From assembly GCA_022482495.1 (NCBI GenBank), contig JAKVPA010000001.1:124001-188000 (forward strand): a stretch of DNA of 64,000 nt. The letters are read 5' to 3'. The stretch is from Sphaerochaeta sp. (GTDB taxonomy: Bacteria > Spirochaetota > Spirochaetia > Sphaerochaetales > Sphaerochaetaceae). A model generated the notes under the pieces. The model saw only the letters and a program-made list of their open reading frames with translations, had not been told where the DNA came from and did not search any database. The translations under genes and the position numbers were made by a program. This document shows positions 59,155 through 60,653 of the stretch, piece by piece. Positions within the stretch are counted from its first letter, which is position 1; each line of letters starts with the position of its first letter.

Positions 59155-60438
59155 CTAACGCCAGACGAAGTACAGCGCCACCGAGGATGCCACGGTGGTT
59201 ATCAGCGTGAAGGGAACCCCGATCTTCAGCCAATCGGCGAAGTTCATCTTGTGCCCTTCCTTCTTCAGGATGCCCATGGCGACGATGTTCGCCGAGGCTC
59301 CGAATGGCGTGAGGTTGCCGCCCAGACAGGAGCCGATCAGCAGTGCGAACATGTATAGCTCCGGCTGGAGGTTCATCGACTGGGACAGGCTTGCCGCCAC
59401 CGGCAGCATCACCATGATGTACGGCACGTTGTCCACGAAACCAGAGACGATGACCGACACCAGAATGATCAGGACGAAGCCCAGCACGACGTTTCCGCCG
59501 ATCGCCCTTCCCAATGACTCGGCAAGCAGATCGAGGAGACCGCTCTTCTGCACCGCTCCAACGACGACGAACACGCCGATCAGGAACAAAATCGTCTCCC
59601 AGTCAAGCCCGCGTACCAGACGACGCACTTCGCTGCGCCCTTTCTTCTGGGAGAAGCGGTACCAGAACAGCCCGATGACGGCAAGGGCCATGACAAAGAT
59701 GCCGCTTGCCGCGCTCAGACCGCCGAAGATGAACGAACAGATGGCCAGTCCGATGATCATGGCGATCAGAAGGATGGTGGGGACGAAGGAAAGCAGCTTT
59801 TTCTCCCGCATCACCACCGGTTTCTCGTTCCAGCGGCGGAAGTACAGCCAGAAATACACCGCTCCGGCAACCATGCCGATCTGGACGAACCAGAAGATGG
59901 AGATCTTTCCATCGTAGAAGAAGAAATCGTTGAACCCGTAATGGGCGAAGGTGGCGAAGATCATCGAAGGGGGATCACCGACCAGCGTGGCCGTCCCCTG
60001 CAGGTTGGCCATCACCGCCAGCCCGATCATGAAATAGGTGGGGTCCATCTTCAGCTTGCGGCAGAGCGAAAGGCAGATCGGAGCCATCAGAAGGACGGTG
60101 GCCACGTTGTCCACCACCGCGCTGATCAATCCGGTGAGCACCAGAATGGCGATGATGGAGAGTCCTACGTTGGAGGAACGCGCGATGATGCGGTCGGCGA
60201 TGCATGCAGGAGCGTTGCTGTAGATGAACAGCTCGGCGATGACGAGGCTCCCCACGTAAATGGCAAGCACGTCCCAGTTGATCAACGTGGTGAACGATTC
60301 CTTCACCCCGACGACGCCCAGCGCCATCATGATGGCTGCGGTGATCAACGCCGCCCAGGCTTTCCAGTCTCCTTTGATGATCACCACGGCGTACATGGCG
60401 ACGGCAAGGGACAACACGGCGATCTGCATTCCACTCAT
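59155..60438 (-). CDS. SLC13/ArsB-like transporter under a Mn2+-riboswitch candidate
   Basis: 427 aa, about 11-12 membrane segments in two inverted halves of the ion-transporter superfamily: SAVVDNVATVLLMAPI and VMANLQGTATLVGDPPSMIF in the first half, SGFVDNVPYIMVMLPVAASL and GGNLTPFGASANIVAMGI in the second. It resembles ArsB/NhaD/P-protein and SLC13 carriers, which move anions or exchange cations. Start ATG 60438 has GGGAG upstream and lies 15 bases after a terminator that is part of a yybP-ykoY-type leader, so a role in Mn2+ (or related metal) export is suggested. That function is inference. Confidence 0.88.
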   Translation of the reverse strand: MSGMQIAVLSLAVAMYAVVIIKGDWKAWAALITAAIMMALGVVGVKESFTTLINWDVLAIYVGSLVIAELFIYSNAPACIADRIIARSSNVGLSIIAILVLTGLISAVVDNVATVLLMAPICLSLCRKLKMDPTYFMIGLAVMANLQGTATLVGDPPSMIFATFAHYGFNDFFFYDGKISIFWFVQIGMVAGAVYFWLYFRRWNEKPVVMREKKLLSFVPTILLIAMIIGLAICSFIFGGLSAASGIFVMALAVIGLFWYRFSQKKGRSEVRRLVRGLDWETILFLIGVFVVVGAVQKSGLLDLLAESLGRAIGGNVVLGFVLIILVSVIVSGFVDNVPYIMVMLPVAASLSQSMNLQPELYMFALLIGSCLGGNLTPFGASANIVAMGILKKEGHKMNFADWLKIGVPFTLITTVASSVALYFVWR

Positions 60439-60452
60439 CTCACACACTCCCA

Positions 60453-60496
60453 CAAAAAAAGGCCTCCCGGTGATGCGAAGCATACCGAAAGGTCTT
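60453..60496 (-). terminator. Riboswitch expression platform: terminator
   Basis: Minus strand: AAGACCTTTCGGT pairs with ACCGGGAGGCCTT (one mismatch), then an inner ATGC/GCAT pair around TTC, followed by T7. The left arm contains CCTTTC, which is also the 3' strand of the aptamer's P1, so aptamer and terminator exclude each other. Confidence 0.85.
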
Positions 60497-60579
60497 GTGC
60501 TCCCCCTTTGCAGAGGGCAGTGGAACCAGGCAGTCATGCCGGTTGTTGGCTCCACACGGTGAAGGACTACTCCCCTTTC
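60487..60579 (-). promoter_or_regulatory. yybP-ykoY (Mn2+) riboswitch aptamer candidate
   Basis: The 93-nt leader starts GAAAGGGGAGTAG, the hallmark 5' motif, and ends CACAAGACCTTTC, the hallmark 3' motif. GAAAGG (60579-60574) pairs perfectly with CCTTTC (60492-60487) as P1. Inside, GTGGAGCCA pairs with TGGTTCCAC (9 bp), holding CAACAACCGGC and a GGCA/TGCC hairpin, and CCCTC pairs with GGGGG in a last hairpin. The terminator sharing P1 and the downstream transporter fit an ON switch. Recognised by eye, not by a covariance model. Confidence 0.75.
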
Positions 60580-60581
60580 TT

Positions 60582-60653
60582 TGACCGGAGAGGGATTTGG
60601 ACCCCCGACCCGTTGCGTGTAAGGCAACTGCTCTCCCGCTGAGCTATCCGGCC
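60582..60653 (-). tRNA. tRNA-Val (anticodon UAC)
   Basis: 72-nt cloverleaf: acceptor GGCCGGA/TCCGGTC, D-arm GCTC/GAGC, anticodon stem GTTGC/GCAAC with loop CTTACAC (anticodon TAC), variable GGGTC and T-arm GGGGG/CCCTC with one G-U pair. Discriminator A at 60582. CCA is not encoded, as in the tmRNA. The riboswitch candidate starts three bases after the mature 3' end. Confidence 0.96.

Follow-up and report, generated by a model that had tools for sequence, protein, structure and literature searches.

A P2-less Mn2+ riboswitch in the leader of a gene for a CitMHS/ArsB-fold carrier probably acts as a transcriptional ON switch for that gene, and the carrier likely lowers cytoplasmic Mn2+ (rough probability 0.8 for this reading as a whole). 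The leader lies on the minus strand of the window (the whole 64,000-nt stretch of DNA that was analysed), in a spirochaete genome (G000) of 2.25 Mb and 14 contigs. Every element listed in a preliminary description of the locus was found on that strand: the 5′ signature (GGGGAGTAG, read at 60575-60567), AAGACC, P1 with the strands GAAAGG and CCTTTC, two hairpins (P3 and P4) and a terminator with a T7 tail. The reuse of the P1 3′ strand by the terminator left arm (fold, -17.4 kcal/mol) and the 15-nt spacing between T7 and the transporter ATG (60438) were also as described. The extent given there was 60453-60579; the model match covers 60484-60581. The window copy has no P2 hairpin; a 10-nt linker stands in its place (Table 1). 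Scans of the leader for promoter and terminator patterns were uninformative, and the terminator hairpin has a bulge.

Table 1. Features of the locus in the window, and loci found in the class and phylum scans, listed by the gene downstream
Feature	Position or locus	Strand	Basis or remark
Aptamer-terminator leader	60581-60454	minus	5′ of carrier gene
Predicted P2-less yybP-ykoY-type Mn2+ aptamer	60484-60581	minus	covariance model R1, 83.9 bits, with the window copy part of the R1 training set (independent support: recovery of E. coli mntP and alx)
P1 5′ strand GAAAGG, switch helix	60579-60574	minus	partner 60492-60487; compensatory change in 2/6 pairs
P1 3′ strand CCUUUC (DNA CCTTTC)	60492-60487	minus	common to P1 and terminator left arm
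L1 signature GGGGAGUAG	60567-60575	minus	first two G paired in P1, last G in P1.2
P1.2 5′ strand GU	60566-60567	minus	paired with AC 60498-60497; U-A to C-G compensatory change
Linker, 10 nt, at the position of helix P2 in E. coli mntP	60556-60565	minus	no stem predicted
P3 hairpin with internal loop L3 (CAACA) and upper stem GGCA/UGCC	60520-60555	minus	comparative alignment
P4 hairpin	60501-60517	minus	compensatory change in 6/6 pairs
AAGACC, L1 3′ strand AAGA and start of P1 3′ strand	60491-60496	minus	AGACC or AGACU conserved
Intrinsic terminator	60454-60496	minus	fold -17.4 kcal/mol; left arm holds all 6 P1 3′ nt
T7 tail of terminator	60460-60454	minus	sequence
CitMHS/ArsB-fold carrier, 427 aa, regulated gene	59155-60438	minus	PF03600 E 2.3e-67; PF02040 E 4.4e-17
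tRNA-Val(TAC)	60582-60653	minus	RF00005 and anticodon; 2 nt upstream of P1 5′ strand
TetR-type regulator	start 60908	plus (opposite strand)	
Class scan, CitMHS-type (13)	L043-L047, L051, L053, L056, L058-L060, L062, L063		
Class scan, OadB-like (8)	L048, L049, L050, L054, L055, L057, L066, L052		
Class scan, P-type ATPase	L064, L065		
Class scan, MntP	L061		PF02659 E 3e-52
Phylum scan, CitMHS-type	L078-L081, L084		L080 outside class
Phylum scan, P-type ATPase	L083		
Phylum scan, GDT1	L082		partial, masked
Phylum scan, Na/Ca exchanger (PF01699)	L085:1508-2762		R2 E 0.0013

Comparative evidence for the RNA family

Single-sequence folding beat shuffled sequences only modestly (z = -1.75 for the whole leader and -1.19 for the aptamer) and is therefore unconvincing by itself. 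Homologous leaders, upstream of relatives of the carrier, were found at seven other loci (L002/L019, L003/L020, L021, L023, L024, L025 and, in Treponema parvum, L027). For covariance model R1, the window copy and six of these leaders were combined in a MAFFT alignment with a hand-set structure of 27 pairs; L024 was excluded from the models because its 5′ part was misaligned in the first alignment. Covariation, which the preliminary description had proposed to look for in homologous leaders, was present, with compensatory changes in 13 of the 27 pairs of the seven R1 sequences (0/500 shuffles) and 91.5% of cells paired as compared with at most 46% when slid. Scanning the class with the covariance model located the element in 23 of 395 genomes. 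In model R2 (25 sequences, 27 pairs), 19 pairs showed compensatory change, pairing was supported in P1, P1.2, P3 and P4, and 94.5% of cells were paired versus 30-49% when slid; these counts lean toward the model because the R2 alignment was fitted to it, and the MAFFT alignment of R1 agrees in direction.

Both models are spirochaete-only and contain no accepted Mn riboswitch, yet each recovered the two E. coli leaders. R1 scored 34.8 bits (E = 1.5e-6) on mntP and 19.7 bits (E = 0.0074) on alx, and R2 scored 36.4 bits (E = 2.3e-6) and 24.2 bits (E = 0.0021), respectively, the E-values being rough as the search spaces were small. The yybP-ykoY identity originally proposed is borne out by this recovery, and the window RNA is very probably a Mn2+ riboswitch of that kind in reduced form.

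A search of the region with RF00080, put forward earlier as a check, left the window copy without a significant match, whether at the gathering score, in a permissive scan of the leader or genome-wide. This null result carries little weight, because E. coli mntP, too, falls short of the RF00080 (Rfam 15) cut-off (41.6 vs 45 bits) and alx is left unlisted; for the same reason, annotation with RF00080 will miss Mn riboswitches. Its failure on the window copy is probably due to the absence of P2. The other spirochaete copies were likewise below the cut-off or undetected. L024 reached 21.1 bits (cut-off 45) in an alignment spanning GGGGAGUAG and UCAACAUAC...UGG, the element at L061 reached 31.4 bits (E = 8.1e-5, also below 45) and was the same element that R1 matched with E = 2e-10, and the Treponema berlinense element before GDT1 (L038) gave 18.8 bits with RF00080 and 19.7 bits with R1. 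The window matched no other Rfam riboswitch. RF00080 matches at L039-L041 (E = 0.015-1.1) were dropped, there being no convincing genes downstream, and an R2 match at L086 (E = 0.0097), in which the signature is missing, is probably a false positive.

The tRNA-Val(TAC) gene stands directly before the riboswitch in two congeners as well (L019, L020). Since the tRNA ends 2 nt from P1 in all three, a single transcript probably carries both tRNA and switch, and the terminator of the switch may also act as terminator for tRNA-Val. That the element is nothing other than such a terminator, resembling yybP-ykoY by chance, would suit this spacing and the modest single-sequence fold, but is scarcely credible: the comparative data already contradict it through the strong covariation, the recovery of the E. 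coli Mn riboswitches and the retention of the element without the tRNA in other families. At L080, outside the class, a tRNA at 1389-1459 lies about 40 nt upstream of the aptamer.

Metal core, junction and expression platform

GGAGUAG of L1 and CAACA of L3 were invariant in 25/25 aptamers. Structures from Xanthomonas and Lactococcus show that a conserved adenosine extruded from L1 makes an A-minor contact and that N7 of a discriminator adenosine in L3 contacts Mn2+ (PMC6754395). In our own mapping, both adenosines fall in the invariant motifs, the discriminator being the last A of CAACA (60544 in the window). L3 was shorter in many copies, and those with CAACA-ACC lack, again by our mapping, a residue equivalent to U49, which is reported to lie away from the Mn2+ site (PMC6754395).

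The interval between P1.2 and P3 measured 6-10 nt in 25/25 copies (10 nt in the window); two copies have a stem of 3 bp there and the rest none. In E. coli mntP the corresponding insert is longer and contains the P2 hairpin. Because P2 is absent, the junction differs from the solved four-way-junction structures, a difference that we treat as structural variation within the family. The spirochaete RNAs share with yybP-ykoY (RF00080) the L1 signature, the CAACA of L3, helices P1, P1.2, P3 and P4, the 3′ AGACC and a terminator reusing the P1 3′ strand, and differ from it in the linker that replaces P2 throughout the main set, the often shorter L3 and the genes regulated.

Outside the 25-copy set, a P2 hairpin was apparently kept, as judged by eye, in L024, L064, L065 and L085. 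The leaders at L064 and L065, which precede P-type ATPases, have an alx-like L3, with GAUCGUCAU-ACG instead of CAACA, keep the L1 signature and AAGACC, and score only 29 bits with R1; two switch sub-types may coexist in spirochaetes. Upstream of position 3001 in L022, the 3′ part (AUACCAGACCUUUCGCGC) and the terminator are kept and the GGAGUAG half is missing, as in a decayed or misassembled aptamer.

With P2 lost and L3 often shorter, the spirochaete variant could have changed its ligand, for example to Na+ or another divalent metal. OadB and NhaD/ArsB-like genes also fit a Na+ regulon, and Na+-I riboswitches have been reported upstream of oxaloacetate decarboxylase genes (PMC9337991). Such a change is nevertheless improbable given the invariant metal core, the position of the missing L3 residue (U49 by our mapping) away from the Mn2+ site, the lack of a match to any other Rfam riboswitch and the presence of the same variant before MntP (L061). 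Sodium in particular fits poorly, because RNAs of the same kind are found not only before MntP but also, as close forms, before GDT1 and P-type ATPases.

The P1 3′ strand lay within the terminator left arm in 30 of the 33 leaders with a scorable T-run, and at least two of the exceptions were cases in which the script had picked an earlier T-run. A P1-exclusive platform, which is the anatomy of an antitermination ON switch, is thus present at the sequence level. Blocking of the terminator by Mn2+-stabilised P1 is an experimentally supported mechanism for the yybP-ykoY family (PMC6754395). Because its P1 3′ strand overlaps the terminator arm, the window copy, which is predicted to bind Mn2+ and to switch, is expected to be ON with Mn2+. 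Without Mn2+, the downstream hairpin would take the P1 3′ strand CCUUUC and, with its U7 tail, end transcription before the gene. In excess Mn2+, metal held between L1 and L3 would dock the two helical legs and stabilise P1, the terminator would be blocked and the carrier would be made. The carrier would then most likely bring down the Mn2+ level of the cytoplasm, and its mode of action would probably be cation/H+ or cation/Na+ exchange by way of the Asp/Glu-Asn pairs of the two re-entrant tips.

Regulated genes and the role of the carrier

Genes for MntP, TerC, GDT1/UPF0016 proteins and P-type ATPases are those usually found under yybP-ykoY Mn2+ aptamers. A CitMHS/ArsB-fold carrier followed 21 of about 36 spirochaete elements and a standalone OadB-like protein followed 8; the others preceded MntP, GDT1/UPF0016, P-type ATPases and, in one case, a Na/Ca exchanger. 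The class scan accounted for 24 elements (13 CitMHS-type, 8 OadB-like, 2 P-type ATPase and 1 MntP), with CitMHS-type calls made in part by Pfam and otherwise from translated N-termini, and with L052, at a contig end, assigned as OadB-like through the near-identity of its leader to that of L066. In other spirochaetes, the aptamer found upstream of the window carrier also precedes genes for MntP, GDT1/UPF0016 and P-type ATPases, which further upholds its identity; the window gene itself belongs to none of the known Mn exporter families (MntP, GDT1/UPF0016, P-type ATPase, TerC) and has an ArsB/DASS fold (PF03600). The element was absent from the carrier orthologues at L026 and L028-L037, among them the T. 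berlinense CitMHS orthologue (L036). The leader at L085, before the Na/Ca exchanger, is aptamer-like and has a longer, different expression platform.

The OadB-like genes (PF03977) examined in context (L071-L074) were standalone, with no decarboxylase alpha or gamma subunits among the neighbouring reading frames in these four contexts. Upstream of one OadB leader, a match to TD-1 RNA below threshold (50.3 vs 64.5 bits) was seen on the opposite strand (L048:1197-1316). In the literature, nothing was found that links yybP-ykoY to CitMHS/ArsB-type carriers or OadB, although the supplementary gene lists of the founding papers may contain them. What is described here is a known riboswitch in reduced form, together with two gene families for which no earlier report under yybP-ykoY was found.

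The ArsB/SLC13-like character assigned to the downstream gene at the outset was upheld by its matches to CitMHS (PF03600) and ArsB (PF02040) and by its predicted fold. NCBIfam scores fell far below the cut-offs for ArsB (85.9 vs 457 and 71.9 vs 415 bits), DASS (92 vs 198.6 bits) and MamN. An AlphaFold2 model (mean pLDDT 85.4) found its best solved-structure match in ArsB (10tp; Z = 43.7, 2.6 Å over 409 residues, 20% identity), followed by SLC13 carriers, so that the likeness to ArsB/DASS proteins (SLC13, VcINDY) extends over the full-length fold. Among these close structural relatives, DASS proteins carry anions and ArsB carries arsenite. Where VcINDY has its SNT motifs, however, the carrier family has acidic-Asn motifs at the re-entrant tips, D/E-N-V and D-N-V (D110-N111 and D336-N337), with the tip residues acidic in 24/24 aligned relatives, including relatives without the aptamer. 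Acidic tips would seem to fit a cation better than a carboxylate.

As the same switch stands before known Mn exporters in related bacteria, the carrier is probably an unrecognised Mn2+ exporter. We infer export solely from the common regulon and favour it, by a little over even odds, as the likeliest reading; the unrecognised Mn2+ efflux family suggested in the preliminary description is strengthened to this extent and is plausible. Alternatively, the switch may sense Mn2+ and the carrier move Na+/H+ or a carboxylate, giving indirect support under Mn stress. The nearest folds, ArsB and Na+-coupled DASS, are compatible with this, as is the other unusual gene under the aptamer, OadB-like, whose known relatives pump Na+. 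The source genome also encodes its own MntP (L087), which lacks the aptamer and is a further candidate for Mn export beside the carrier; searches of that genome for GDT1 and TerC were negative. We nonetheless consider a non-exporting carrier rather unlikely, as the remaining genes under the aptamer are of cation exporter families that include Mn exporters, and as acidic-Asn motifs replace the SNT substrate motifs. In addition, E. coli YbiR is a distant superfamily member (BLASTP, E = 2e-7 over 113 aa), and its gene lies after the Mn regulator gene mntR and overlaps it by 4 nt. The homology is distant and the aptamer is absent there (no R1 or R2 match in the mntR-ybiR region); the overlap is a weak extra link to manganese.

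For export by the carrier, a broader proposal would be that the ArsB-fold carriers form a new Mn2+ exporter family of Spirochaetota and the standalone OadB-like proteins a second, both under a P2-less Mn2+ riboswitch undetected by RF00080; this is offered tentatively, at slightly less than even odds. A branch of Mn riboswitches escapes the current RF00080 model. If the reading of the carrier is true, an ArsB/SLC13-fold carrier would add a family of Mn2+ exporters, proteins whose sole annotation is "citrate transporter" or "ArsB-like" would gain a testable function, and an orphan OadB-like membrane protein would be linked to manganese.
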